DNA of 64,000 nucleotides from Tetraselmis striata. Lineage: Eukaryota > Chlorophyta > Chlorodendrophyceae > Chlorodendrales > Chlorodendraceae. The position numbers and the translations under genes were made by a program. The notes beneath the pieces were generated by a model. It did no database searches and was not told where the DNA came from. It worked only from the letters and a program-made list of their open reading frames with translations. Positions 3,665 to 23,720 of the stretch are shown here, piece after piece. How positions within the stretch are numbered: position 1 is the stretch's first letter; each line of letters starts with the position of its first letter. The stretch lies in the NCBI GenBank assembly GCA_006384855.1, contig VCJN01002194.1, positions 1-64,000 of the forward strand. The letters are read 5' to 3'.

Positions 3665-3778
3665 TAAGCGCGTGATACTTGCATTTAATAGGAATACTGA
3701 ATCACCACAAACTTAATACTCGTATTCAAGAACGAATCGGGCATGTGAGCATGTGAAAATGCATTTGATCGACGTCAG

Positions 3779-6700
3779 CTGTTGGTATGGCAGAAAAGGT
3801 GCGACGCAGCAATGGGTGGCCATTCCTGAAATGGACATGCGTTCATCAAATGGTATGATTTTTCGAGCATGCCCTACAACATCTTGCGTGACGAGACACG
3901 CCGTCTCGGTCCGCCCGTCCGCCACATGCGCTGTAGGCGATCACACAGATGGTCACATGCGCTACAGGCAGCACACCATAAGCGCGTGATACTTGCATTT
4001 AATAGGAATACTGAATCGGGCACGCGAGGATGTCACGATCGGAACCACGTCAGATGTTGGTATGGCAGAAAAGGTGCGACGCAGCAATGGGTGGCCATTC
4101 CTGAAATGGACATGCGTTCATCAAATGGTATGATTTTTCGAGCATGCCCTACAACATCTTGCGTGACGAGACACGCCGTCTCTGTCCGCCCGTCCGCCAC
4201 ATGCGCTGTAGGCGATCACACAGATGGTCACATGCGCTACAGGCAGCACACCATAAGCGCGTGATACTTGCATTTAATAGGAATACTGAATCGGGCACGC
4301 GAGGATGTCACGATCGGAACCACGTCAGATGTTGGTATGGCAGAAAAGGTGCGACGCAGCAATGGGTGGCCATTCCTGAAATAGACATGCGTTCATCAAA
4401 TGGTATGATTTTTCGAGCATGCCCTACAACATCTTGCGTGACGAGACACGCCGTCTCTGTCCGCCCGTCCGCCACATGCGCTGTAGGCGATCACACAGAT
4501 GGTCACATGCGCTACAGGCAGCACACCATAAGCGTGTGATACTTGCATTTAATAGGAATACTGAATCGGGCACGCGAGGATGTCACGATCGGAACCACGT
4601 CAGATGTTGGTATGGCAGAAAAGGTGCGACGCAGCAATGGATGGCCATTCCTGAAATGGACATGCGTTCATCAAATGGTATGATTTTTCGAGCATGCCCT
4701 ACAACATCTTGCGTGACGAGACACGCCGTCTCTGTCCGCCCGTCCGCCACATGCGCTGTAGGCGATCACACAGATGGTCACATGCGCTACAGGCAGCACA
4801 CCATAAGCGCGTGATACTTGCATTTAATAGGAATACTGAATCGGGCACGCGAGGATGTCACGATCGGAACCACGTCAGATGTTGGTATGGCAGAAAAGGT
4901 GCGACGCAGCAATGGGTGGCCATTCCTGAAATGGACATGCGTTCATCAAATGGTATGATTTTTCGAGCATGCCCTACAACATCTTGCGTGACGAGACACG
5001 CCGTCTCGGTCCGCCCGTCCGCCACATGCGCTGTAGGCGATCACACAGATGGTCACATGCGCTACAGGCAGCACACCATAAGCGCGTGATACTTGCATTT
5101 AATAGGAATACTGAATCGGGCACGCGAGGATGTCACGATCGGAACCACGTCAGATGTTGGTATGGCAGAAAAGGTGCGACGCAGCAATGGGTGGCCATTC
5201 CTGAAATGGACATGCGTTCATCAAATGGTATGATTTTTCGAGCATGCCCTACAACATCTTGCGTGACGAGACACGCCGTCTCTGTCCGCCCGTCCGCCAC
5301 ATGCGCTGTAGGCGATCACACAGATGGTCACATGCGCTACAGGCAGCACACCATAAGCGTGTGATACTTGCATTTAATAGGAATACTGAATCGGGCACGC
5401 GAGGATGTCACGATCGGAACCACGTCAGATGTTGGTATGGCAGAAAAGGTGCGACGCAGCAATGGATGGCCATTCCTGAAATGGACATGCGTTCATCAAA
5501 TGGTATGATTTTTCGAGCATGCCCTACAACATCTTGCGTGACGAGACACGCCGTCTCTGTCCGCCCGTCCGCCACATGCGCTGTAGGCGATCACACAGAT
5601 GGTCACATGCGCTACAGGCAGCACACCATAAGCGCGTGATACTTGCATTTAATAGGAATACTGAATCGGGCACGCGAGGATGTCACGATCGGAACCACGT
5701 CAGATGTTGGTATGGCAGAAAAGGTGCGACGCAGCAATGGGTGGCCATTCCTGAAATGGACATGCGTTCATCAAATGGTATGATTTTTCGAGCATGCCCT
5801 ACAACATCTTGCGTGACGAGACACGCCGTCTCGGTCCGCCCGTCCGCCACATGCGCTGTAGGCGATCACACAGATGGTCACATGCGCTACAGGCAGCACA
5901 CCATAAGCGCGTGATACTTGCATTTAATAGGAATACTGAATCGGGCACGCGAGGATGTCACGATCGGAACCACGTCAGATGTTGGTATGGCAGAAAAGGT
6001 GCGACGCAGCAATGGGTGGCCATTCCTGAAATGGACATGCGTTCATCAAATGGTATGATTTTTCGAGCATGCCCTACAACATCTTGCGTGACGAGACACG
6101 CCGTCTCGGTCCGCCCGTCCGCCACATGCGCTGTAGGCGATCACACAGATGGTCACATGCGCTACAGGCAGCACACCATAAGCGCGTGATACTTGCATTT
6201 AATAGGAATACTGAATCGGGCACGCGAGGATGTCACGATCGGAACCACGTCAGATGTTGGTATGGCAGAAAAGGTGCGACGCAGCAATGGGTGGCCATTC
6301 CTGAAATGGACATGCGTTCATCAAATGGTATGATTTTTCGAGCATGCCCTACAACATCTTGCGTGACGAGACACGCCGTCTCTGTCCGCCCGTCCGCCAC
6401 ATGCGCTGTAGGCGATCACACAGATGGTCACATGCGCTACAGGCAGCACACCATAAGCGCGTGATACTTGCATTTAATAGGAATACTGAATCGGGCACGC
6501 GAGGATGTCACGATCGGAACCACGTCAGATGTTGGTATGGCAGAAAAGGTGCGACGCAGCAATGGGTGGCCATTCCTGAAATGGACATGCGTTCATCAAA
6601 TGGTATGATTTTTCGAGCATGCCCTACAACATCTTGCGTGACGAGACACGCCGTCTCTGTCCGCCCGTCCGCCACATGCGCTGTAGGCGATCACACAGAT

Positions 6701-8085
6701 GGTCACATGCGCTACAGGCAGCACACCATAAGCGTGTGATACTTGCATTTAATAGGAATACTGAATCGGGCACGCGAGGATGTCACGATCGGAACCACGT
6801 CAGATGTTGGTATGGCAGAAAAGGTGCGACGCAGCAATGGATGGCCATTCCTGAAATGGACATGCGTTCATCAAATGGTATGATTTTTCGAGCATGCCCT
6901 ACAACATCTTGCGTGACGAGACACGCCGTCTCTGTCCGCCCGTCCGCCACATGCGATGTAGGCGATCACACAGATGGTCACATGCGCTACAGGCAGCACA
7001 CCATAAGCGCGTGATACTTGCATTTAATAGGAATACTGAATCGGGCACGCGAGGATGTCACGATCGGAACCACGTCAGATGTTGGTATGGCAGAAAAGGT
7101 GCGACGCAGCAATGGGTGGCCATTCCTGAAATGGACATGCGTTCATCAAATGGTATGATTTTTCGAGCATGCCCTACAACATCTTGCGTGACGAGACACG
7201 CCGTCTCTGTCCGCCCGTCCGCCACATGCGCTGTAGGCGATCACACAGATGGTCACATGCGCTACAGGCAGCACACCATAAGCGCGTGATACTTGCATTT
7301 AATAGGAATACTGAATCGGGCACGCGAGGATGTCACGATCGGAACCACGTCAGATGTTGGTATGGCAGAAAAGGTGCGACGCAGCAATGGGTGGCCATTC
7401 CTGAAATGGACATGCGTTCATCAAATGGTATGATTTTTCGAGCATGCCCTACAACATCTTGCGTGACGAGACACGCCGTCTCTGTCCGCCCGTCCGCCAC
7501 ATGCGCTGTAGGCGATCACACAGATGGTCACATGCGCTACAGGCAGCACACCATAAGCGCGTGATACTTGCATTTAATAGGAATACTGAATCGGGCACGC
7601 GAGGATGTCACGATCGGAACCACGTCAGATGTTGGTATGGCAGAAAAGGTGCGACGCAGCAATGGGTGGCCATTCCTGAAATGGACATGCGTTCATCAAA
7701 TGGTATGATTTTTCGAGCATGCCCTACAACATCTTGCGTGACGAGACACGCCGTCTCTGTCCGCCCGTCCGCCACATGCGCTGTAGGCGATCACACAGAT
7801 GGTCACATGCGCTACAGGCAGCACACCATAAGCGCGTGATACTTGCATTTAATAGGAATACTGAATCGGGCACGCGAGGATGTCACGATCGGAACCACGT
7901 CAGATGTTGGTATGGCAGAAAAGGTGCGACGCAGCAATGGGTGGCCATTCCTGAAATGGACATGCGTTCATCAAATGGTATGATTTTTCGAGCATGCCCT
8001 ACAACATCTTGCGTGACGAGACACGCCGTCTCTGTCCGCCCGTCCGCCACATGCGCTGTAGGCGATCACACAGATGGTCACATGA
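3779..8085 (+). repeat. 275-bp satellite array, about 15.7 copies
   Basis: Near-identical 275-bp units repeat from 3779 to about 8085. The marker ATGCCCTACAACATCTTGCG recurs every 275 bp from 3869 to 7994 (16 times). Units differ at only a few positions, so the array is young or homogenised. The long reading frames inside are artefacts: 275 is not a multiple of three, so the frame changes in every unit. Past 8085 the repeat continues as a diverged partial unit to about 8140. Confidence 0.97.
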
Positions 8086-8222
8086 GGATCGGAACCACGT
8101 CAGATGTTGGCATGGGAGAAAAATGCGACGCATCTATCGGGGGCTATATCCGAAATGGAAATGGCCCGTCGTGGGTCGCAACTGTAGTGGGTGTCGGGTC
8201 GTGGGTGCCGACTGTAGGGTGG

Positions 8223-8252
8223 AACAGTAATTTAACCTATTTTGCGCCGTGG
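8223..8252 (+). repeat. Left terminal inverted repeat
   Basis: This 30-bp sequence matches the reverse complement of 20596-20625 at 27 positions. It lies directly right of the diverged edge of the 275-bp satellite. Confidence 0.7.
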
Positions 8253-9092
8253 AATTCATTTTGCACCGTAGGGTTTGTTCATACCCTAGTTCCCGGGTTT
8301 ACTATCAGTACTTAAGACTCACTGGTGATGTAGCTTGGGTTTGTAGACCTTGGGTGCAGTGCAGCATTCAACAGCATGAAGGCCAGCCGCGACGCATATC
8401 CAATGTTGGTTTTGGAGCATTTTGTCCAAAATGGGACAAGATGAGGCAATGAAATCAATATTTATTATGATTATTACATCCAGCGGCTAGCTAGCCACAA
8501 GACGTTGCTGATAGTTTATTCGTTGAGCATCCCCAACTCGAGCAAGTCCTTCTTCGTGGCTGCGTTAAACTTGACGACTCCGCCGGGTTTGCGTTGCGCT
8601 GGGGTGGTTGACATGACGTGGACGCAGTTGTTTCGTGGCTGGCTGATTTGCCACCCAGTTTGCGCATATGTCTTCACGACTTGGACGCTTTTACCGTACC
8701 ACTTCTTTCTGACCATGGTGCCGTCCTCGTTGAACACCTCTCGACTTCCCGACGCGTCGTGGATGGCCTTCGCGTACGATAGGGGGACGGCTTCAACAAG
8801 CTTCCAAGGAAGCGTCAGGCACTTCTCCCAGCTTGTGTCAACTGGCTTCTTCCCTCCTTTTGTCTGCGCGTACAACCATAGGGGCATGAGGGGTTTGCCC
8901 TTTGCATCGGCATGGAAGGGCTCGTATACGGCCACGGTCAACGTGTCTTCGGTAGTCTCGCGCGACTTCACAAGCCCGATGACAAATCTCGACTCCCAAT
9001 CACCAAGAGTTTCAGGACACTTGTCTTCCTCATGCACCTAACGATGACCAAGACCGCGAGCTATGTTAGTCCCGAGCGAGACGCCACGCCGT

Positions 9093-9114
9093 TTTTGTCC
9101 CAGCTGGGACAAAA
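9093..9114. repeat. 22-bp perfect palindrome in intron 3 of the transposase-like gene
   Basis: The arms are TTTTGTCCC and GGGACAAAA around a central AGCT. The same GGGACAAA core is the main motif of the three minisatellites and of the repeats near both ends of the element, so it may be a protein-binding site. Confidence 0.8.
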
Positions 9115-10892
9115 TAACAAGCAAGGTAGAAGAACCAAATTGTTTTGTCCCGTAAAGGACAAAAATGACAAACAATGGGACTCACATCGGAGACGTCGAT
9201 GACAACGAGGTTCGAGCCCTTTGCATCGCTGGGCGATGTGTTGTCATGAAGCCTCTCCTTGGCGCCGGCGTGAACTCCCCGGAAGGCGCTGTCATCTTGA
9301 AGCACTTCAGCACGAACCTCGGCTTCCACGCGAGCGGCTTCGGCATTGTTGAGGTCTGCGTTGGTAGCCATCGTGTGACGTGCCTCAGCAGGCACGGTCT
9401 GCCCGTGCCCGCGCAAGAAGTCGTCAACTTCCTCTTTCTGTTGCGGCCAGAACCCGGAGAAAGCTGCCGAAGGAGCAGTTTGCATCTCATCCAAGTCGTC
9501 GAGCAGATTCTTCCAGCTCTCGCGCTCGACTGGGGAGAAGTGCCACTGGACCGCCAGGTCCGTGATGTACGACCTGACCTTCTTGAAATCATCCAAGTAC
9601 CTCTGGACCTTCACCGCGTCGGGCTTCTTTTTGTCGCAGAGAGCCTACAAAAGGGGCCGGCCCGCACGAATCTCGGGCGTCCCAGTTGGCGCGCTCTTCA
9701 AGATCTGCACGGGCTCAGAAAGCGGTGTGTTGGACCACAAGGCGGTGCGCAACGAGCCGCCAGACGCGGCGGCGTCGTCACGGGTGAACTCGAATTTGTG
9801 CGGCTTGCTGATGTCCTGAATGTGGTCTTGGAAATGGGGCCTTAACCACTCAGAGAAGTCGAGGGAGAATGAGAGCTCAGCAATCTCCGGAGTGGGCGAG
9901 AATGCCTTCGCCACCAAGTCAAGAAAGGCCTCGATTGTGTAGGCGGAGCTGCGAGATAGCGCAAGACTGATGCGGCTGAAGATCTGGTCAACCCGTTCGT
10001 GAGTGTGCCCGACAGGCAAGAAGACCAAATGAATGACGTCGCAGATGCCGATAGACACAAGCCAATTGCAGAGGGCCGCCACGTTCCTATTCTTGTTCTC
10101 CCTGACGGTGTTGTCCATCTGGATTCTGATGTACGGAATCTTTCTACCACGGTGTTGAATTTCCTGCATCGCAGACCAGATTTCATCAGTCCATGGCTAC
10201 CGGACAACCACGGCGAACCTATCGGGAGGCTAATGAGCTCACCTTCATGATCGTGATCCATATCAGAGTGCACGTCGTGGACGAATCGTGGGGGATGGTG
10301 TTGGTGTAGTAGTAGATGTCGTCCGGGCGGTATCCGTCGTACTTCACACAGGTGAGGTGGTACTTGAGGAGCATGTCGGGCTTCACAGTCTTGGGGATGC
10401 GAACCCAGTGAGGCAGAAGGGTCTTCGCGGAGTCCATGCTATCAATTTCGAAGAAGAAGAAGTTTCCATGGCCAAGGCGCGACTGGAAGACGGCGTTGTT
10501 CAGATCCCTTCGTTCCTGGCGCACTCTCTCGAGGTGTACCTTCTGCTCAGCTCTGACCTGACGCCTCACCAGCTGCTGATGTTGACGGTGCACTTGACGT
10601 TCCTCTGGCGTCATGTCCTTTGTGCAAATCTCGCGAGCTTGGTCTCTGAGTGCTTTGCCCGCCGCGCATATGGGACAGTGGCTGAATCGCTTCACCTTCG
10701 GCGTGGTGACATCCGGGAAGTCTTCCTTCCAAGTCCGGCGGAAAGTGTCGAACGATGCGAGCTTCACTTCGCTCTCGGCAGCCAACTCTACAAAGGGGCA
10801 GGGGCATGATAGGTCGGTATACAAATAAGGTGTCATAATGCGAGACAGAAAGTTCGGTCTAAAGTGGGTCGAAATAATTATATCGGTAGTGG

Positions 10893-11547
10893 GTGAATAA
10901 TTCTGTAATCAGCAGGGCGAAACAATCTGTCATCAGTGTGACGAAACGGTATGTCAGTAGTGGGACAAAACCGTCTCTCAGCAGTGGGACGAGACGTTCT
11001 CTCTGCAGTGGGACGATATCGGCTAATTATGTGGGACAAATACTTTTGTGGTCGGTGGGACGAAACGGTATGCCACGAGCGGTGCGAAACGTTCTGTCAT
11101 CAGTGGGACGAAATCGGTCCGGCGTCGGTGGGACTAAACGTTCTGGCGATAGCGGGACGAAACGGTCTGTCATCAGCGGGACAAAACGGTTTGTCATCAG
11201 TGGGACGAAACGGTTCGTCATCAGCGGGACAAAACGGTTTGTCATCAGCGGGACAAAACGGTTTGTCATCAGTGGGACGAAACGGTTTGTCATCAGCGGG
11301 ACGTAACGGTTTGTCATCAGCGGGACGAAACGGTTTGTCATCAGCGGGACAAAACGGTTTGTCATCAGTGGGACGAAACAGTTTGTCATCAGCGGGACGA
11401 AAGGGTATGTAATTAGCGGGACGAAACGGTATGTCATCAGTGGGACAAAACGGTCTGTCATCAGCGGGACAAAACGGTTTGTCATCAGCGGGACGAAACG
11501 GTTTGTCATCAGCGGGACGAAACGGTATGTCATCAGTGGGACAAAAT
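10893..11547 (+). repeat. 24-bp minisatellite A, about 27 units
   Basis: The unit core on the plus strand is GTCATCAGYGGGACRAAACG, period 24 bp. The left part is irregular and the right part nearly perfect. It fills intron 1 of the minus-strand transposase-like gene. The period is divisible by three and five of six frames are open, so it produces spurious repetitive reading frames. Confidence 0.95.
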
Positions 11548-12382
11548 GGGCCTCACCACGGAGAATGGCGTTGTCGTCCTCGGCCCACGACTTGTAGTAG
11601 TAGTAGACGCAAATCTTGGTCATCCAGGGAGGTAGGTGCTTCTTGAAGGTCTCGCTGTTTCCGTCATGAAAAGGCATGATCTCGACGTGACCGAGGTCAT
11701 CCGAGAAGAAGTGCTCGAGAAACATGCGCACATGCTCCCTCGGTCCGGTCTGTCTGCTCTCGTATTGCTTGCGCTGCCTGATGTACGTGGGTTCGTTATC
11801 CACCACCGACCGCTGGATAACGAGACGTCTGTGTTTCGAGACCTGATGCAAGACCTCCCACGCACGCCCACACGTGTAGATGGGGCCGCGATGATCGAAA
11901 GATCGCAAGTAGCCACCGTGATCGAACATGTAATCGAACTTGTCGGATGCCGACTCGTAGCCACCCCTGAGAACCTGAGCGAGCCGGTCAAAGGAGCGGT
12001 TCTGATTGCCAGAGTATACGGTCAACGCACGGTCCAACACGGCATCGACGAGGGCCTCTCCGCACTGTGTGTATAGCTTGTGCACGCACTTGCGCGAACA
12101 GCATGGCGACTGCTCGCTAGCCTCCTTGGCGAGCATGAGGCGGATACTATCGCGAGAGGTGCGCTTGCTGATCAGAGACGAGACCTTGCCATTACCGCTT
12201 TCGGCGACCTCATCGGAGCCCTTGCCCCACGTGTACTTCCTTTTCTCAGGCTCCTTACGATCACTCGCACGCGCGTCGCAATCACACGAGTACCCGCTGC
12301 GGCACGAACACAGCGGTAATGTAACTGTAGTGTCCGACGCGCCGGATCCTGGAGAAGAGGCCATGCTTTCGACCGCCGCCAT

Positions 12383-12921
12383 GCAGCGCGGGGCGAGTGG
12401 GTGGGGGCGGGGGGTGAAGGACTGTGATCTGTGGTGAGGAAGAGTGACGGCCGATGACCGTTCTCGGACGGGCCGTTGACCGGGGTGCATAATATCCAGC
12501 TACGGGTGAAAATAATTGATGACTCAAATACCGTGTTATTTCGTGCTTCTTTCGTTTGTCGGAAATAGTTCTATACTAGTAAGTACACCCGAATCCAATC
12601 CAAGGAATATATCATCCCATGAAGGAATATTATTGCCACGCCACTGTACTCTCGTACCGTTATGACTCTCGAGTAGGGAATATTTTATCTTCCAGTAATA
12701 GTAATATATAGTCGCAGTAGTTAGCCTTGTATATTCGTCGCGGTGCAAAATACATGAACCTGATGACGACGACGAGGTACACTATAGTGTGCGCACGCGC
12801 GCCGTTTGTCCAGCAGGGGTCAGAGCGGCGGCAGACAGAAACCACGTCATTTCCACCTCTCCCTCACCGCTTCCCACCAAGAAACCCGCTCATCTACCGC
12901 GTCAACCTACCTACCGCCAGA
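12383..12921. promoter_or_regulatory. Divergent promoter between the two element genes
   Basis: This 539-bp gap separates the starts of the minus-strand transposase-like gene and the plus-strand methyltransferase-like gene. It is AT-richer than its surroundings (TATATAG near 12705). It contains GGTGCAAAATACATGAACCT around 12738-12765, which partly resembles the terminal inverted repeat. No defined promoter motif can be assigned. Confidence 0.5.
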
Positions 12922-13000
12922 ATGGCGCCGAAGAAGAACGAGCCTGCCAAGGACAAGGAAGACAAGGACGACGCCACCCCAGGTGAGTTGCGCGCGCGTG

Positions 13001-13236
13001 CAGTAGCTGCCTGCCTGCTCGACGCGTGATACGGCTAGATCTAGCGAGTTCGGTTAGGGTTCACTGTAGAAGCGGTGTAATCTAGGACCACTCGAGGTGT
13101 AGGCAGACGAGTGGCAGCGTACAGTAGCCGCCTGCCTGCTCGACGCGTGATGCGGCCTGATCTAGCGAGTTCGGTTAGGGTTCCCTGTAGAAGCGGTGTA
13201 ATCTAGGACCGCTCGAGGTGTAGGCAGACGAGTGGG
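13001..13236 (+). repeat. Two tandem 121-bp repeats in methyltransferase-like intron 1
   Basis: Copies start at 13001 and 13122 (CAGTAG(C/T)(C/T)GCCTGCCTGC). They share GATCTAGCGAGTTCGGTTAG and CTCGAGGTGTAGGCAGACGA with a few substitutions. Confidence 0.9.
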
Positions 13237-13477
13237 AATAGAAACCCAAACGAGACGAGCGGCATCAGGGTCCTGCAGGGTAGTATTACGTCCCGTCGAG
13301 GCAGCTGCGGCAAGCAGTAAGGATGCTAATTGGTGGTGGCAGCGGGTGGGGTTGATGAGCGGCCAGGGGGAACCTCTGCCTGTACTCCGCCGTAAGGATT
13401 GGTTTAATATTAGTGTGAAGAGCAGTACTTAAAGACATTACATTATTAAACCGCAGTACATAATGTATTGAAAATAG

Positions 13478-14057
13478 TTTTGTCATCAGCGGGACGAAAC
13501 GTTCTGTCATCAGTGGGACGAAACGGTTTGTCATCAGCGGGACGAAACGGTTTGTCATCATTGGGACGAAACGGTTTGTCATCAGCGGGACGAAACGGTT
13601 TGTTATCAGTGGGACGAAACGGTTTGTCATCAGTGGGACGAAACGGTTTGTCATCAGTCGTACAAAACGGTTTGTCATCAGCGGGACGAAACGCTTTGTC
13701 ATCAGTGGGACGAAAGGGTTTGTCATCAGTGGGACGAAACGGTTTGTCATCAGTGGGACGAAACGGTTTGTCATCAGCGGGACGAAACGGTTTGTCATCA
13801 GTGGGACGAAACGGTTTGTCATCAGCGGGACGAAACGGTTTGTCATCAGCGGGACGAAACGGTTTGTCATCAGCGGGACAAAACGGTTTGTCATCAGTGG
13901 GACGAAACGGTTTGTCATCAGCGGGACGAAACGGTTTGTCATCAGTGGGACGAAACGGTTTGTCATCAGCGGGACGAAAGGGTTTGTCGTCAGTGGGACG
14001 AAACGTTCTGTCATCAGTGGGACGAAACGGTCTGTCATCAGCGGGACGAAACGATCT
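13478..14057 (+). repeat. 24-bp minisatellite B, about 24 units
   Basis: Same unit and orientation as minisatellite A (core GGGACGAAACGGTTTGTCAT). It occupies the 3' half of intron 1 of the methyltransferase-like gene and ends 22 bp before the exon 2 acceptor at 14079. Confidence 0.95.
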
Positions 14058-14524
14058 GACAGGGTATGATATTTGTAGGCCGAAGGTCCAAGCGGACATC
14101 AAAACCTACCGAGAAAGCAAAAGAATTCGATGCGCTCGGAGCGCTAGTAGGGAGAAAACACAAGGCGTCATCTTCTGTGCCAGAGCAGCCGGCGGCGAAG
14201 AAGAGCCGTGCAGCCTCAGCTTCTGCAGCTAGAGCCGGCGCTGAGGCATCAGGTAACCCCTGGAAACCGAGCCTTTTAGGAGGTAGGGTGACGGCTTACG
14301 GCACGCACTCGCAAGGAGAAAGATCGGCCGCCTTGCTTTTGAGGGACCGAATCAAGCGCGGTCAGGTCCTCTCAGATGCTCAAATGCAGACAGCGCGAAG
14401 GCTAATGGATTACGAAAAGCTCATGCAAGCTTACTATCAAGCAGGTCCTTGCCTCTCCAATCACATGATTTTTGTGTGTGCACTGTGTCATATTGACATT
14501 GTTTGAAATCATGTGTGTTGACAG

Positions 14525-14795
14525 GTTCGAAAGGACGCGCACAAGAGCCAGTAGCGACTAAAGCTTCAAAGGAATCCAAGGGGAAAGAGAAGGTTTCAGA
14601 GACAATTGTGACTCCAGGTAATTGTGACTGAAAGTATCAATCCCTGCCTTTGTGAGTGCACTGTGTCACATTGACATTGTTTAAAATCATGTGTGTTGAC
14701 AGGTTCGAAAGGACGTGCACATGAGCCAGTAGCGACTCAAACTTCAAAGGAATCCAAGGGAAAAGAGAAGGTTTCAGAGACGATTGTGACTCCAG
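14525..14795 (+). repeat. Tandemly duplicated symmetrical exon
   Basis: Two 93-bp exons (14525-14617 and 14703-14795) encode near-identical 31-residue peptides starting GSKGRA(Q/H)EPVAT. Part of the flanking intron is duplicated as well. Both exons are phase 1-1, so duplication kept the frame open. Confidence 0.9.
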
Positions 14796-16959
14796 GTAAT
14801 TGTGACTGAAAGTATCAATCCCTGCCTTCTCACTCCCTTCGATTACTTTCTCGTCAATGAGTTATCTGACGTTCCAACAGGTCGTAAATTGGCGCAGGCA
14901 ACCGCGTCGGAAGCAGCTGGTAAATCGGGATCCCCAGGTAAGAAATTCACGATTGGCTTTGATGTGTATGGCGATACCGTTCAGTAGTTAATCGTGACGC
15001 CCACCGCAGGTGTGTTGAGTACTCTCTACTCATTCTTTACAGGTTCCCCGAATCAAGGCTCTTCTTTGTCTAAAGGCCCGCCTCAAGTCCCGGAAACAGA
15101 GCCTGAGCCTGAAATAGAGCACACTGAGCCGGAGCCAGAGCCTCGGCATGAGCCTGAAACTGAGCCCGCTCAGATGGAGCCCGAGCCGGAGCCCGAGCCG
15201 GAGCCCGAGCCCACTCGGCTTGACCCGGAGCTAGAGGCCGAGCTCGAGACTCCAGCGCCGACTACCGGGCAAGCGTCCGGTTCTGGAGCCTCTTGTTCTC
15301 GAGCCCCTGTTGCCGAGGCTCCGAGAAGGGTTCCTGAATTCCTCAGTATGTGCACGGATGAAGAGGTATTCGGCACAGAGGAAGAACAAAGGCAACGGGC
15401 GGCGGAGAAGCGTAAGCAAGCTCTCGACATCACCGGCACTCCCGGACCCGAGAGGAAGACAAAGCTGATGACGGTCGCCTCTTACGACGACTTCTTTGAC
15501 GAGAGGGACGGGTCCCAAGAAGATGACTCCTACAGCGACTTTACCTCAAGGAGCTGGACTATCCACTGGTTGAAGAACGCAAGTGCTGAGGTCGAGATCT
15601 ATTTGTACATCGAATTGCACAAGGCGAGCCTGCTGACTGGCAAGGACTTTTTCGATGATCCGAAGGGGCCACTTCTCGCGTGTATCGGAAAGATCAAGGA
15701 CGTCGAGCTGGACTCGGCCGGAAACTACGAGGTGAGTAAAGCTTATATGATGTCTGAATTCGTGTCAATGTCGTGTTTCAATAAGTATTTATATTCTTGT
15801 GCTTGTTACCGCAGATATCTCTTGAACCTTATCGCTTGACAGTGCACAAGGAGTTCAGGATCGATGTCAGCTTTGAGAGGTTGCTACTCCACGCGATCCA
15901 GCCGCCACTCTCCTTCCAACCGCGGTTCCAGTCTTACTACGCATGGACTTTGGTCGAGCGCAATGTGCTGGCGCAGGCGCTGACAGGTTTCGCGTCGGGT
16001 CAGATTGACATCGATGACTTGGCCAACATTGACAAGGATTTTAAGAACGCGCTTCCATACGTCAACACGTTGGCCGTCCCGCCGGCCTTGAATGGCTTCC
16101 ACAACACCGGTGCCGTCGACTGGATCTCTTACGGCCACCTCAGAGTCGAGATTGCTGATCCAGAGATGAAGACATCTCACGGTGGCGACATCAACACGTT
16201 ATACGCCGACAGAGTCAACCTCGTGGTCAACAAGGATACGGGGCTGCCTTACATTTTCAGCTTCATATCCGATAAGTTCGTCGCTCCGCCGCCGGAATTT
16301 GAATTCCGTTCCCCAAAGCTGCAAGACTGCAATATGGTGGCGCAAAGCTACAAGGTAAAAGCCTATCGCGACCTGTTGTACCTATCCGGATCAGATGTGT
16401 GTAGTTACATATAAATCAATACACAATGCAACTTACTGACATCCATTTCTTGCATTTGTTATTCAGAGAAATCCTTCCCTGTCCGCCGAGAATTTCTCGG
16501 TGTCCTTTCCAGTAGTCCCTAAACATGAGTTTTTATCCGAGGATTACGAGCCCCTCGCTCAGACCATGGCCAACTTCAAGGAGCTAGTCGCAGCACACGA
16601 AGGCGGGGAGAACCCGAGGTTGGCGGATTCCAATTCCTACAAGCCAGAGATCGACGTCATCGTCGAGTTTCTTCGCGCCCACGGCGCGCGTCAAGCCAAC
16701 ATCGACGGCAGCCACAGACGGGAGGCGAAGCGCATGGTGAAAGAAAACTACCCGGAAATCTACAACGCCAACAAAGGCATCCACCTCACGTCGACTAAGA
16801 TGTACATCGGCCTCTCGCCGGAAGTCTGCCGCTACATGTCTATGAAGCTCAACGAGGCGGGTCACACCGTCGTGGGAGACACGTCGATGCACAAACTCCT
16901 GGTGAGTGACCCATTCTCCCAAATTACTATTTAGCTAACCGTGGCAGCAAATAGGCGTA

Positions 16960-17440
16960 AAGTGTGACAAAAGTCGTTCTGTCGTTAGCGGGTTAAAAAT
17001 ATGTCACAGTGGGACGAAACGGTTTGTCATCAGCGGGACGAAACGGTCTGTCATCAGTGGGACGAAACGGTCTGTCATCAGTGGGACGAAACGTTCTGTC
17101 ATCAGCGGGACGAAACGGTTTGTCATCAGCGGGACGAAACGGTTGGTCATCAGCGGGACGAAACGTTCTGTCATCAGTGGGACGAAAGGGTTTGTCATCA
17201 GTGGGACGAAAGGGTTTGTCATCAGTGGGACGAAACGGTCTGTCATCAGTGGGACGAAACGGTTTGTGATCAGCGGGATGAAACGGTCTGTCATCAGCGG
17301 GACGAAACGTTCTGTCATCAGTGGGACGAAATGTTCTGTCATCAGCGGGACGAACCATTCTGTCATCAGCGGGACGAAACGTTCTGTCATCAGTGGGACG
17401 AAATGTTCTGTCATCAGCGGGACGAAACGGTTTGTCATCG
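16960..17440 (+). repeat. 24-bp minisatellite C, about 19 units
   Basis: Third array of the same unit in the same orientation. It fills the intron between the exons ending at 16901 and starting at 17488 of the methyltransferase-like gene. Variation is mainly GCGGG/GTGGG and GGTTTG/GTTCTG. Confidence 0.95.
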
Positions 17441-20312
17441 AGGTACAAGCGTTAGGAATTTTGAAATCGGTGCAATTGTTTCTGCAGAACCTTCGCAGAT
17501 GTTTCGAGAGCTGGTATGCAGAACAGGATGCAAATCGCCCCGGCTTTAGGGCACTTCCGCAAATCAGGGTAGTGAAGGAGTTCAAGAAGTCTGAAGTTCT
17601 TCAAGTTGAACTTGAGAAGATCGGCATCAAAGATGAGAAGAGCAGCGAGTTCTCAAATTTGATTGACCTCTGCTCGCGCCCACAACGGTGAGCTGCGTAC
17701 ATGATGAAAATTTATCGTGTTGTTAATGCTGCTAGATTCTGACAAATGATTTGCGCAGTGTTTTTGAGCCCCTTGAGCAGATTTCTGAAGCCTACCGGCA
17801 TGTGGACCTCGGGGTTCGAGGAAGGGACGAAGCCACAACCAAACTCGGAGACCTATTGGTGTACTACGAGCAAGAACTCGATAGAGTCAAGCGCCTCAAT
17901 TACGGCAGGCAACTCACCCAGAAGGAAGTGAGCAAGGTTTACGAAGCAATTCGGAAGCCTATCAATACAATCCTCGATAACAAGAAGTACGGCTTCGGGA
18001 AAGACAGAGCTCACTTCCGAGTCGCCCTCATGGAGGTAAGTTGTGACCGACCCCAGTGTCTTAATCACATGGAATACTATCATTATTCCTTTCTCCGTAC
18101 TGAAGTTTGTTTTTCGACCCAGGATGTCGGCTTTGGACCCCATGCGCCCTGGCTAGACGAGCCGTCTCTTGCCAAGCAGAGCGACAGCGCGGATCTCCCT
18201 GTGGGCCAGATGTACCTGGTGGTTGGACTGCTCATCCAAGGCGAGCACAGTGTGACCCCTTGCCTCTACGAGCTGGTGGATGACATAAAGCATGCCGGCG
18301 ACAATGGCCCCATGGCTGTTACGCACACCAACGCGGAGTGGCTCGCGATGATTGAGACCTGGAGGTTTCGCGATCTCTTGCGTCGAGCAAGCATCAAGCT
18401 CATGAATGCTATTGGCACGGCAAAGGGACACGGACAGGAACTCCAACTGCTGACGCCGGACGAACCGGCCAGGAACTGGGGGAAATATCTCTCGGGACCA
18501 CATCATCGAAATGGATGTGGATGACAAAGTGTCGGATGAGCAAGCGGCCGCTCGCCTTGACGCCATCACCAAGTTCCGAGCCAAGGTTGATGACCTCGGC
18601 CCAACAGGCTTCCCTAGAAAGTTCCAGGATTTGTTCAAAGGTGCTCATCGCTCCGGTCCGTTGATGGTCTTGCTGACCCCTCCTGCCAGATGGGGGGACA
18701 TGAAATCCGCCGATTGTCTCACACCACTACCGGTTCGAGAGCATATCGCGGCCACCAACACCACCATCAGGAGTGAGGCGTATCGCATCAAGAATCAGAT
18801 GCCGGACTTGGTCATCTCCTTCTTCACAGAGTTTGCTCTTCTGGCATGTGCGCCGGAGCTTATCGCGGTTTCCGCTCCGAATGTTTCTAATGAGCTGTGG
18901 ATATCGATGAAGGTAACTAAGATCTTGTGCAACCACAAATGCTCTTCTGAATTTTCGTTGTGAGCTATTAACCCGAATCTGTTTCTAATACACACAGGCC
19001 GGGGCACTTCCGGTGATGCCCAAGGGCTGAAAGGTCGACAAGGATGACAAGGTGTGGTTGAAGACGGAGCTTTGCAAGACTTGCATTGTGGAGGGGAACT
19101 TCAAGGCTCCCGCGACAAAACAATTCGTCGCGGACGCCATGTCGGCAGTTCGTGCCAAAAAGGCAACAGTCTTCATTGCCGACGCGCTTTTCGGAGCTGG
19201 TTCGCACACATGGGACTCGAAGGATGCTGCGTGGGGTACGGACGACTTCAACGACGTGTTTGCTTTCGCCAGGCAAGACAACCCCCACAACCCCGGTGCG
19301 TACTAGATGACTGTGCTTTCATTTATCTCATTCCCGATTTACCCCCGCGCAGGCAGTTGAATATCCTGACTGGATCTTCTGACGTCCACACTGCTCTCGA
19401 TGGGTGCCATTTCTTCATTCACCTCTCGGACCAGCAACTTGGATCCGCAATCACAGCCGTTCAAAAACAAGCTGAGGACCTCATCTATCACGTCCTGACT
19501 TGGGCCAAGGATTGCGGGATGAAGATGGGCAGCTCTCTGCGTCACGACGCTGAGTACTACCTCTACGTCAGGAAGCCCCCGCCAAGCATCATAGCTGACA
19601 ACATCCGTTTCAATGATCCCCGAAGGTGAGATTTGATCCGTGGAAAATAGCCGGCTTGTATATTCTACTCGCTAAGCCGGTTGTGCCTTTCCAGGTTCTC
19701 TACATCCATCATGTTGGGTCACTTCAAAGACACTGCGAAATTGAAGGACGAGAACAGACAGACGGTGAACAAGTACCAAAAGCCTATCGCTCTCTTCGCC
19801 AAGCACCTTAAGATGGCGGCAACAGACGGGACAACAATCGTCGACGTCACAGCCGGAACCGGGACAACCGCGGTGCGTGAGGAGTGCAACCCGGGTGAGT
19901 GTCTTAATGGGGTCAGCATAAACAAATTAACGCCTTGTGCGGTTTGCCACGCCTTTTCCAGGTCGCTGCGGCCTTTTCCGTGTGGTGGGACCATATGGAT
20001 CATACCTACTCGTTCACGCACAGGAACTTGAAGATTATCCTCATTGACAACCAGAAGACGCAAATCGCTGGGATGAAGTCCAGGATGACCTCATGGTTCA
20101 AAGAGAAGCCATGGGACGAGACTCAAAGACTGCGTCCAAGTGACTTCGAGAAGTGGCCGGGTCTACCCCTTCCAATGACCGAGTTAGAGGAGCGGGAAGA
20201 GCGTGCAGCGGCGGAGAAGAGGAGGCAACAGGCGGCAGAGCGCCGAGGGGATTATGTGATCGAAGATGATGATATGTAGTACAATTCCGCAAAATTAGCC
20301 GCTCATATGTTT

Positions 20313-20512
20313 TGTCCCGGCTTTGACAGAGTTTCAGCCCCGGACGGCACAAACTGCTTGTAGCCATCACGGCCCCCGCACTTCTTTTTGTCCCAGTTTG
20401 GACAGAGTTTCAGCCCCCGATGGCGCAAACTTCTTGTAACCATCCCGTTTCCTTCACTCTTTTGATTTGTCCCTGCTTGGACGGAATTGGTTTCCCCGAC
20501 TTGGCACAAAAT
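20313..20512 (+). repeat. Subterminal ~70-bp repeats near the right end of the element
   Basis: About three imperfect copies start TTTGTCCC and continue with GGACAGAGTTTCAGCCCC and then (A/T)ACT(G/T)CTTGTA(G/A)CCATC. They lie between the methyltransferase-like stop and the right inverted repeat. A similar TTTTGTCC...GGGACAAG palindrome-like motif lies near the left end at about 8417-8440. Confidence 0.75.
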
Positions 20513-20595
20513 GAATCAACCGGCATTCATATTAGCTTTCAATCCCACAGCTGCCCCCAAACCCTAATTTAGACCTAACCACAATGCACCGCGTG

Positions 20596-20625
20596 CCTCG
20601 GGGCAAAATAGGTTACATTACTGTT
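20596..20625 (-). repeat. Right terminal inverted repeat
   Basis: The reverse complement of 8223-8252 with three mismatches. Outside it on the right is a G-rich stretch (TGTGGGTGGGTGGGAG). Confidence 0.7.
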
Positions 20626-22246
20626 GTGGGTGGGTGGGAGAAAAACAGTAGAGGTGCAAATAAAGGGCATTTTCGGGGGGGGTAAGGGCGAGGGGAAGAG
20701 CGGCTCTGCTATTTTAGCCCAGCACCGCCTATATACTATTTTCGTATGCGGTCGTTGTCCGCCTCCGACTGGCACCCCCGCCGCGACGGGCTGTCGGTAT
20801 CTCCGATGGTCGGCCCTCCCCGGCGCGGCACGCGCGACCTCTGGTTAATACACCCCTCCACAAAAGTCCCAGGGCCCTTTCTCGCCGAATCCGAGCTTAC
20901 GAATAGTAGGGCAGCCGAATCTAGGGTTTATGACCTGAAATCCTGGAATATTGCACATTCATGCTCAGCCTTTACCACCATAGGGTGTAACTAGCCCCTT
21001 TGGCCCTAACAAGTGCCCTACACGAGTGGCACTTGCGCCACACTGAGCGTTTCCAATATCCCCGCAACAACCGGGGGTTGGTGCCCCGCACGTCCCGCCG
21101 CGCATGCATAGACCACTGCATGGTGGGATGGCCATGGGTGGGCGAGGAAACATGGCAGCAAAGAGGCTAGGGTATTTTTGGTTGGGGTGGGGCCATAGTG
21201 ACGTGCGCCTGTGCACGATGTGGCGTGATACCATCGCCAGTGCTACGCTCCCGTGTGGTGCAGTTGTCGAACTCGCGATATCTCTCGGTGCGTTGAGAGG
21301 AAACGCCAGAATATGTTCATATACATACCAATAAAAACAACGCAAGCAGGGCCACAATTTCTTCAGCGTCGGCACGGTCGTCCGAGGCCATTTAGTCACT
21401 TTTTCAATATTTTAGAAACGATCTATCGGAGTCGGACGTCTGTGTCAGCGTGTGGTCACCACATTAGCGTGAAATTTTTCGCCGAGTGGATATCTCAAAA
21501 CCTGATACACGGTGGCGGGACAGTGTGTTGCGTGTACTCGTGCACGGACCACTCATACTTAGGACATGCCCCCCTTGAGCGATGCCCACGGCCGCCATGC
21601 CGGATCCACCCTTTCTCAACATTATTTCCACCTGCATCGGCGCATTAAGGTGTACGCCATTGCCGCCCCACTGGGCTCACCCTGGCGCGCTATGAGCATG
21701 CGGTCATGCACTACTATAGAAAAGCTTTGGCCTACGGCAAGGAGGCCGCGAGAACCCTCTCCCGCCTGCGCGCGCAGCGATCACACCCGCATGTTGTCCA
21801 TGTTTCTGGTAATAAACCATCGTCATCGACACGTGGGGCTTGGTCCAGGTCGTGAATGACCTAATTTCAATGCCCTACATGTATGGTGGTGGTGATCATA
21901 CCAAGGGTGATATGGTATGAGTACGGAGGCCGTGGTGTGTCCCATGCCTATGTATGCACACGAGCAAGCTGTGCTTTTATTGCGTAAATGAAAGTGACTG
22001 GTCACGCAACGTACAGGTATCGCGTGGCATTATCGGGTGTATCGCGCTATCGCGGCATCCCCCCCCCCCCCCCCCCCCCCCCCCCACCGTACAACTAACC
22101 CTGAGTAACATGCATGCGCACGCACACGGCCTCAGTGTAGCTGCGCATGGGCATGCGGATCAAATTCGCAAACCCCATACTTATGTGGAGGGGTGTAGGA
22201 GTTAGCGGGGGCTTTCCGGTACGAGGCCGCAACCCGTGCCCATATA
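20626..22246. other. Intergenic, nothing recognised
   Basis: No reading frame with family resemblance or consistent splice phases was found on either strand. A 24-base C-tract lies at about 22062-22086. Confidence 0.5.
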
Positions 22247-22451: not shown

Positions 22452-23720
22452 GTGTCAACTTACTCTATGCCGACTCGGACCCGAGCCTCAGCCTCCCGAG
22501 ACGCTACACCTTCCCCACCCCGCGACAGCAGGATGCCCCATCGTCCTGTACCGGAAGACGCCCTAGTCGACGACGCCCCGGGCGGCGCCACTGCGGCATC
22601 CATCGCGGAATTGGAGAAACGCCTAACGGCCCAAGCAATAGCCCTGGAGAAGCGGCTGGCCGAGCAGTTCGAGGCGGCTACGGCCGCCTTACTCGCTCGA
22701 CTGGCCCCTCCCGTGCTATCGCCTCCTCCCAAAGGCACCCAGCCAGCCATTCCCGCGGGCGCGCCTGCGCCCGAGGGTGGTGAGCAAGGAGCGCAAGAGC
22801 CCTTTCCTGCTGAGCTAGACGCACTCGACACCGAGCTCGAGTACGTCGACTTCGCCTACTTCGGTCAAGTCCCCCCTTCCGGTCTGGAGCCACCCCCACG
22901 CGACGGCGACGAGCCTCGCTTGTGGATTCTGACCGGCGACGACACCGAATTGGAAAAACGCCTGACGGCCCAAGCAATAGCCCTGGAGAAGCGGCTGGCC
23001 GAGCAGTTCGAGGCGGCTACGGCCGCCTTACTCGCTCGACTGGCTCCTCCCGTGCATCCGCCTCCTCCCAAAGGCACCCAGCCAGCCATTCCCGCGGGCG
23101 CGCCTGCGCCCGAGGGTGGTGAGCAAGGAGCGCAAGAGCCCCTTCCTGCTGAGCTGGACGCACTCGACACCGAGCTCGAGTACGTCGACTTCGCCTACTT
23201 CGGTCAAGTCCCCCCTTCCGGTCTGGAGCCACCCCCACGCGACGGCGACGAGCCTCGCTTGTGGATTCTGACCGACGACACCGCCGCCCACGGCCTCGCG
23301 GAGCAGCGGGGTCTGACAGCGTACGACAAGTACATGTATCTTCACTGTCATGCTAAGGCCTGCGGCCAATCCCTGGCGGTACGGCCGTCACTGCAGTACA
23401 GTGTACAGTACCTGGGCCGCCCGTCCCGCGCACGGCGCCCGCGCCCGGGCTCAGGAGCGCCCTGGACGGTGTCGATGGCGGCCGAGCCCCACCTTCTTGC
23501 CGACCTCTCTCCGGCGCCGGCATGCCGACCAAGTTTTGGAGCGTTTCCCCGCTGGAGCCTTCCGCCGCTTGGTCCTTTTCAGCCACTCCCACTGACTGGC
23601 TGCGGGACGCCCGCCTGGCGGCGGGCGCCCAGCCGCCCCCCAGTGTCACGTGGGCATCGCACAAGTTGCGCAAAGGCGCGGCCTCGGCAGCGAGCTGCTA
23701 TGCTGCGTTTCTGCTGCTAG
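22452..23720 (+). CDS. Gag-like or orphan coiled-coil protein of the TRIM-like element
   Basis: A single 422-residue reading frame within the LTR-like element. After a Ser/Pro/Arg-rich start, residues about 53-165 and 166-278 are two tandem copies of a 113-residue module. Each module has a charged amphipathic helix (EKRLAEQFEAATAALLARL) followed by Pro-rich and acidic segments. The last third is Pro/Arg-rich and may not be coding. There is no zinc knuckle, protease or polymerase motif. A structural gag-like role is inferred only from its position between the LTR-like repeats. Confidence 0.45.
   Translation: MSTYSMPTRTRASASRDATPSPPRDSRMPHRPVPEDALVDDAPGGATAASIAELEKRLTAQAIALEKRLAEQFEAATAALLARLAPPVLSPPPKGTQPAIPAGAPAPEGGEQGAQEPFPAELDALDTELEYVDFAYFGQVPPSGLEPPPRDGDEPRLWILTGDDTELEKRLTAQAIALEKRLAEQFEAATAALLARLAPPVHPPPPKGTQPAIPAGAPAPEGGEQGAQEPLPAELDALDTELEYVDFAYFGQVPPSGLEPPPRDGDEPRLWILTDDTAAHGLAEQRGLTAYDKYMYLHCHAKACGQSLAVRPSLQYSVQYLGRPSRARRPRPGSGAPWTVSMAAEPHLLADLSPAPACRPSFGAFPRWSLPPLGPFQPLPLTGCGTPAWRRAPSRPPVSRGHRTSCAKARPRQRAAMLRFCC

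Follow-up and report, generated by a model that had tools for sequence, protein, structure and literature searches.

The window analysed here is a stretch of 64,000 nucleotides from the chlorophyte Tetraselmis striata (assembly GCA_006384855.1, contig VCJN01002194.1, positions 1 to 64,000 of the forward strand), and positions 8223-20625 of it are a DNA transposon of 12.4 kb. The element carries two divergent multi-exon genes: gene 1, on the minus strand, encodes a DUF7869 protein, and gene 2, on the plus strand, encodes a larger protein whose last third resembles DNA amino-methyltransferases. No further gene is recognised among the open frames of at least 100 amino acids, ten of which were scanned against Pfam, in agreement with the initial annotation, which had placed exactly two such genes and no host gene between a pair of inverted ends. 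The coordinates of the features are collected in Table 1. The exon boundaries are predictions from reading frame, splice signals and comparison of copies; the database gene models agree with them in part, departing from them in gene 2 exons 9, 12 and 13.

The 30-bp terminal inverted repeats match at 27 of 30 positions, as first described, and beyond them 16 of 70 positions agree. With equal base use, chance would produce about 9e-6 such end pairs in 13.2 kb. In the 224 Mb host genome, a 22-nucleotide end pattern has 128 and 120 exact matches (248 in all), compared with 0 for the reversed control. Among the best 40 of 456 candidates for the left end, 39 matches besides the window copy start at most 12 bases from the position of 8223, with 99-100% identity; the right end also has at least 40 matches in this genome (best 40 of 443 candidates), as does a piece from the centre of gene 2 (best 40 of 270). 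Ten further copies were taken from 10 of the 11 other contigs found in both end searches, a selection for copies having both ends; C2525, with ends 23 kb apart, was excluded. One shorter copy (C200) and the ends of five more copies were added, and C1496, whose right end was not found, was dropped from the count of target-site duplications (TSDs).

A 4-bp TSD flanks 12 of the 16 copies having both ends (the window copy, C821, C2106, C154, C1460, C2053, C1562, C140, C470, C586, C753 and C1001). The window copy has GTGG on either side; the TSD sequences are mixed (gtgg, gaac, gcag and others), with no obvious common motif. When the flanks of C154 and C2053 are joined with one TSD, the joined sequences match across the junction in all listed places (best 40 of 308 and best 40 of 220 candidates), 79 of these 80 matches covering all 260 nucleotides and one covering 259. 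Both insertions lie within other repeat families, whose unoccupied members show the empty site; the target of C154 resembles what we take to be the integrase coding sequence of a retroelement. The further copies, exact termini and TSDs that had been anticipated for the unit are thus at hand.

Over aligned bases, the further copies share 97.0-98.4% identity with the window copy, which suggests recent spread. Both genes are intact in five of the 11 copies compared; gene 1 is open in seven, and gene 2 is open at full length in five and with an internal deletion in one more. The window copy itself is broken in both genes, by one premature stop in gene 1 and by a frameshift and a stop in gene 2. 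As to whether the two genes always occur together, a point raised by the initial annotation, both gene regions are present in all ten fetched copies, two of which have internal deletions in gene 2. The C200 copy (L061, C200:44400-52200) is a 7.4-kb derivative, likely non-autonomous, with both ends. Of gene 1 it retains only some 270 residues at the C-terminal end and fragments from the start, and of gene 2 only the final 90 residues; the remainder is other DNA, and no 4-base match is seen between the flanks of this copy.

Gene 1 has four exons and encodes 956 amino acids. Its sole Pfam match above the cut-off is DUF7869 (PF25273; E 1.1e-43; 149.5 bits for a cut-off of 26), which confirms the family assigned at the outset. 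Of its 57 relatives in a protein database, 52 are from T. striata, and the other five are metagenomic, with 25-30% identity. Across these five, three acidic residues are conserved: the D of (I)ID, the D of Q(M/L/V)DN and the E of GHTHE, with 38 residues separating the second D and the E (DD38E). We modelled the structure of a database protein of this family (P0024, from 28 sequences). The core of the model shows strands and helices in RNase H order, with a predicted local distance difference test score (pLDDT) of 55-87 in the 10-residue blocks of residues 361-560, and of the three conserved acids the first lies at strand 1, the second at strand 4 and the third where the helix following strand 5 begins. 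The best Foldseek match has E 0.019, with RNase H-like folds among others. A second structure aligner, which compared only the 1000 best Foldseek structures, fits residues ~359-544 to retroviral integrases (123-140 residues, root-mean-square deviation 2.8-3.6) and ~303-544 to Mos1 and SETMAR (163-176 residues, 3.5-3.9); two more Mos1 alignments are longer, at a deviation of about 23. All 50 listed matches are integrases or mariner transposases, with Z values of 8.3-9.9. Because the predicted core fits integrases and mariner transposases, and because D, D and E are conserved, DUF7869 is very probably a transposase of the Asp-Asp-Glu (DDE) type, in which the three residues would be catalytic, as judged from the model fold and their conservation. 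The likeness to mariner is a fold match, with no Pfam match above the cut-off, and the KDZ family is not among the Pfam matches of gene 1, which is an absence of a match only. Among seven intact copies, gene 1 has 21 nonsynonymous and 36 synonymous changes, with a nonsynonymous-to-synonymous rate ratio (pN/pS) of 0.17, and of 0.09 in the core. In the database, the models P0017, P0018, P0021 and P0064 fuse the transposase with PF07714/PF00069, PF00443, PF02348 and PF13495/PF02899, respectively; these are probably products of annotation across insertions, and possibly real fusions.

Gene 2 has fifteen exons and encodes 1,547-1,576 amino acids (about 1,570). The sole Pfam match above the cut-off lies in its last third and is PF01555, N6_N4_Mtase (2.2e-6; 28.2 bits for a cut-off of 26.7), so that the amino-methyltransferase-like product with its named S-adenosylmethionine (SAM)-binding motif is also borne out. 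The protein further matches PHROG_67 DNA methyltransferase (2.6e-9) and PADLOC MTase_II (2.9e-9); the best NCBIfam match is CcrM (2.6e-4), far under the cut-off and alongside unrelated families. The motif order is IV ... X-I, with the SAM-binding motif I present, reading TAGTG or AAGTG wherever visible in homologues. Aligned with Escherichia coli YhdJ and eight phage enzymes, the domain is colinear along its length, the aligned stretches being the strand that precedes motif IV, the region that follows this motif, W-K-D, E-Y, QKP of motif X and motif I. By these sequence comparisons, the C-terminal domain of gene 2 is a beta-class amino-methyltransferase. In favour of a predicted GC-AG intron between exons 12 and 13, the reading frame is maintained across it and a stretch alignable with the known enzymes is regained; a GT donor for exon 12 puts the next exon out of frame and was rejected. 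The database gene models use another acceptor at this junction, losing about 34 residues. Upstream in the gene, a 178-bp tandem duplication (14471-14826, 95% alike) doubles one whole exon and its flanking intron.

The catalytic motif IV is altered in gene 2, reading DALF instead of DPPY. At this site (D/S)PPY is found in eight of the nine references and DLPY in the other, a phage enzyme, so that P occupies the third position in all nine. DALF is found in all 13 gene 2 homologues, in five element copies and in 25 of the 41 rows of a wider protein search; in total, 38 of 54 database rows have it, or 38 of the 39 that span the site. The remaining 16 rows comprise P0088, which spans the site without those residues, and 15 that do not show the site, and (D/N/S)PP(Y/F/W) occurs in none of the 54 rows. 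Judging from this motif, the gene 2 protein has probably lost methyl transfer to DNA. Among six copies, pN/pS is 0.49 over the whole of gene 2 and 0.68 over residues 1270-1530. Just before the domain, residues 1223-1283 (window about 18998-19180) have a pN/pS of 1.88 (20 nonsynonymous and three synonymous changes), and this stretch diverges fast among copies, in places at several adjacent bases together. Compared pairwise with C2669, the methyltransferase exons give ratios of 0.60-2.06, mostly near or above 1, with one comparison lacking synonymous changes. Gene 2 is under weaker constraint than gene 1.

The two genes are also linked in the database gene models and by genome coordinates. A gene 2 or methyltransferase model lies at most four gene numbers from a gene 1 model in 11 of 51 cases, with 0.56 expected at random, and at least 24 of 40 left ends lie no more than 16 kb from a methyltransferase place, among the matches listed. 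In the genome, the methyltransferase part has at least 150 matches (best 150 of 966 candidates). Other DUF7869 proteins give 117 matches, which by identity appear to form two further families on about 30 contigs each (C1519:184717, C875:24216 and similar; C652:18953 and similar, the P0063 family). Taking one place per contig, among the matches listed, one of these 58 contigs has a methyltransferase place within 16 kb, and this contig, C1302, has a copy of the present element adjoining; therefore, the pairing seems tied to this lineage and not to DUF7869 generally. One of the further families, for which open frames of about 760 amino acids are reported, though some matched pieces hold a stop, is possibly a second transposase family without methyltransferase. 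All 13 relatives of gene 2 are T. striata gene models (EukProt Tetstr1; 7,984 candidates scored), and none was found outside T. striata among the proteins searched, with a search that reaches only relatives sharing short exact words. In viral contigs, searched by a method able to pick up close relatives only, neither the methyltransferase domain nor the DUF7869 exon had a confirmed relative, and tblastn with the methyltransferase part gave no match in phages and one irrelevant match (E 0.3) in plasmids.

We propose, with a probability of about 0.62, that the unit is an autonomous, recently active DDE transposon in which gene 1 supplies the transposase and gene 2 a SAM-binding, most likely non-methylating accessory protein. 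The gene 1 product, an RNase H-fold enzyme of the DD38E type, would bind the 30-bp ends, cut, and join them to the target with a 4-bp stagger, in a presumed cut-and-paste mode. Gene 2 would be built on a captured beta-class amino-methyltransferase, whose prokaryotic or viral source is a guess, and would have kept the fold and the SAM-binding motif while changing DPPY to DALF. With methyl transfer likely lost, its protein would serve the element by binding DNA or the ends, as a helper or anti-silencing factor responsive to SAM. Its targets could be the subterminal TTTTGTCCC palindromes or the related intronic 24-bp arrays, where it might aid assembly or counter silencing. A bolder version is tentative and rather less probable: the element would represent an unclassified DDE lineage with an obligate 'dead writer', a non-methylating or re-specified protein that recognises the element's own ends or repeats as a transposition or anti-silencing factor, and DUF7869 would be an unrecognised transposase family.

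Several results weigh against this proposal. A matching TSD is missing in four of the 16 copies (C2669, C1441, C226 and C200). The P0024 model has a mean pLDDT of only 49, Foldseek alone gives no match to the gene 1 model at E <= 0.001, and the gene 1 protein has no sequence match to any solved structure searched; the pN/pS values were computed on copies chosen as intact. For gene 2, motif X-I is the only part that a profile of the nine references scores (26.5 bits), which makes the alignment outside that part weaker evidence, and hhalign of a four-copy alignment against YhdJ alone recovers only the motif X-I stretch, with a probability of 11%. The gene 2 structure model (mean pLDDT 35) was discarded, so that the fold rests on sequence profiles, and this protein also has no sequence match among the solved structures searched. 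Lastly, position 2 of motif IV already varies in one reference phage enzyme (DLPY), and an enzyme with DALF could have retained activity or have another substrate.

This last point leads to the suggestion of the initial annotation that a working DNA methyltransferase marks the ends of its own element. Such an enzyme, methylating N6-adenine or N4-cytosine despite DALF, would protect or license the ends or the subterminal repeats. The protein still has the SAM motif, motif X and the other conserved stretches, pN/pS is below 1 both in the methyltransferase part and in gene 2 as a whole, and the subterminal and intronic repeats are possible substrates. The suggestion is not supported by motif IV: gene 2 lacks the third-position P common to all nine references, and 38 of the 54 database rows have DALF and none the standard motif. 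We consider an active enzyme unlikely, and a transposase with a SAM-binding, probably non-methylating accessory is favoured over a self-methylating transposon. Somewhat less likely again is a passenger, captured once, now useless and drifting, while gene 1 alone drives the spread. Gene 2 is broken in five of 11 copies and less constrained than gene 1, the C200 copy has kept its ends with most of both genes gone, and 57 of the 58 contigs with other DUF7869 proteins lack a methyltransferase place within 16 kb, among the matches listed. Against decay, five of 11 copies keep the 15 exons in frame with lengths differing by multiples of three, pN/pS stays below 1 across the whole of gene 2, the methyltransferase part has matches in at least 150 places, and gene 2 sequence persists in every fetched copy, including the two with internal deletions.

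An endogenous virus or Polinton-like element is very improbable. T. striata hosts such a virus, the size and inverted ends would fit, and integrated DNA viruses are described as common in protist genomes, some with methyltransferases, in the available text of PMC10120064. Pfam finds no capsid, polymerase, ATPase or protease domain in the two proteins, and a Polinton-like virus was rejected for the lack of a capsid or polymerase domain; the failure to find relatives in viral contigs, within the reach of that search, the two intron-rich genes and the 4-bp TSD point the same way.

Repeats occur within and around the transposon. The three tandem arrays of a 24-bp unit (TTTGTCATCAGTGGGACGAAACGG) lie in introns of both genes, and may act in cis because the C200 derivative keeps such arrays despite losing most of the genes. 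Sequences 77-82% alike to the palindrome TTTTGTCCCAGCTGGGACAAAA at 9093 recur at 8420, 9143, 20310, 20386 and 20465, near both ends of the element. Outside it, a 275-bp tandem array (3772-8084, 15.7 copies, 99% alike) ends about 140 bases to the left, and a 339-bp unit occurs twice (22608-23279, 97% alike) to the right.

Table 1. Features of the transposon in window coordinates; exons are predicted and catalytic roles are putative.
Feature	Position	Strand	Remark
TSD GTGG, left	8219..8222		
Left terminal inverted repeat	8223..8252	+	
Gene 1 exon 4	8516..9037	-	C-terminal, to stop codon
Gene 1 exon 3	9186..10163	-	DUF7869/DDE core, part two; premature stop in window copy, intact elsewhere
Candidate catalytic residue 3	9996..9998	-	E of GHTHE
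Candidate catalytic residue 2	10113..10115	-	D of QMDN
Gene 1 exon 2	10243..10787	-	DUF7869/DDE core, part one
Candidate catalytic residue 1	10441..10443	-	D of EID
24-bp tandem array	10904..11546		Gene 1 intron 1
Gene 1 exon 1	11557..12382	-	Transposase N-terminal part
Shared region	12383..12921		Between both divergent start codons
Gene 2 exon 1	12922..12982	+	
24-bp tandem array	13479..14053		Gene 2 intron 1
Gene 2 exon 2	14079..14444	+	
Gene 2 exon 3	14525..14617	+	Unit one of 178-bp duplication
Gene 2 exon 4	14703..14795	+	Unit two of 178-bp duplication
Gene 2 exon 5	14881..14937	+	
Gene 2 exon 6	15043..15731	+	Acidic repeats; length differs among copies
Gene 2 exon 7	15815..16396	+	3' splice choice uncertain
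Gene 2 exon 8	16467..16901	+	
24-bp tandem array	17002..17439		Gene 2 intron 8
Gene 2 exon 9	17488..17687	+	No aligned piece in 13 database gene models
Gene 2 exon 10	17759..18035	+	
Gene 2 exon 11	18123..18912	+	Frameshifted in window copy, intact elsewhere
Gene 2 exon 12	18998..19272	+	Start of methyltransferase-like domain; stop in window copy; then predicted GC-AG intron
DALF	19181..19192	+	At catalytic DPPY position
Gene 2 exon 13	19353..19625	+	
Gene 2 exon 14	19695..19872	+	Motif X and SAM-binding motif
SAM-binding motif DVTAGTGTT	19843..19869	+	
Gene 2 exon 15	19962..20279	+	To stop codon
Right terminal inverted repeat	20596..20625	-	
TSD GTGG, right	20626..20629		

The placement of gene 1 in an element with exact ends, TSDs and empty sites suggests a function for DUF7869, and the element extends the set of mobile elements with a DNA-methyltransferase fold by a DNA transposon of a nuclear genome. 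With its altered catalytic motif, it makes the role of captured methyltransferases for transposons directly testable, because near-identical copies with both genes open are present in one algal genome. Gene 1 is a member of DUF7869 by profile and has D, D and HTHE in common with the five metagenomic relatives; Pfam gives no function for the family, whereas here it is tied to defined ends, a TSD and an integrase-like model fold. A literature search did not find the term DUF7869, nor, in the portions of the papers that were accessible, a transposon pairing it with an amino-methyltransferase of this kind.

The KDZ elements, with which the unit was likened from the start, offer a fair analogy. According to the available part of PMC12730594, TET/JBP dioxygenases ride several fungal DNA transposon lineages including KDZ, and are thought to aid escape from silencing. 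Common to both is a DNA-modification-type enzyme aboard a DNA transposon; the enzyme there is a dioxygenase and not a methyltransferase, and a relationship is not shown, neither protein here having a KDZ or TET/JBP Pfam match. Captured DNA methyltransferases are also found in eukaryotic retroelements: as far as the accessible text of PMC3266345 and PMC5890265 goes, DIRS retrotransposons carry a Dam-like methyltransferase of function stated to be unknown, and retrotransposons with a DNA methyltransferase (DNMT) occur in Symbiodinium and the charophyte K. nitens. Those elements have a reverse transcriptase and Dam-type or C5 enzymes, whereas the present element is a DNA transposon whose beta-class domain has no DPPY, and no Pfam match to a reverse transcriptase or tyrosine recombinase was found in gene 1 or gene 2.

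Two further systems are described in the part of PMC3627910 available. Sola2 elements have a large transposase (888 amino acids in one case), short imperfect inverted ends and a 4-bp TSD, and chimeric Sola2 elements bear differing accessory genes, there Fanzor. In these features the present element is similar, as likened by description only; the Sola2 TSDs are AT-rich, whereas those here are of mixed composition. The same paper reported virus-borne mariner elements with a methyltransferase in 2013, so that the claim of the initial annotation that no element with such a pairing had been described is overly broad in its general form; for the exact pairing with DUF7869, no report was found in the literature searched. 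Both kinds are DNA transposons encoding a transposase and a methyltransferase. The virus-borne elements combine a mariner transposase, an extra restriction-type endonuclease gene and a cytosine-C5 or Methyltransf_26 enzyme in viral genomes, whereas the present element, with no endonuclease gene found, combines DUF7869 with a beta-class amino-methyltransferase domain in a nuclear genome.

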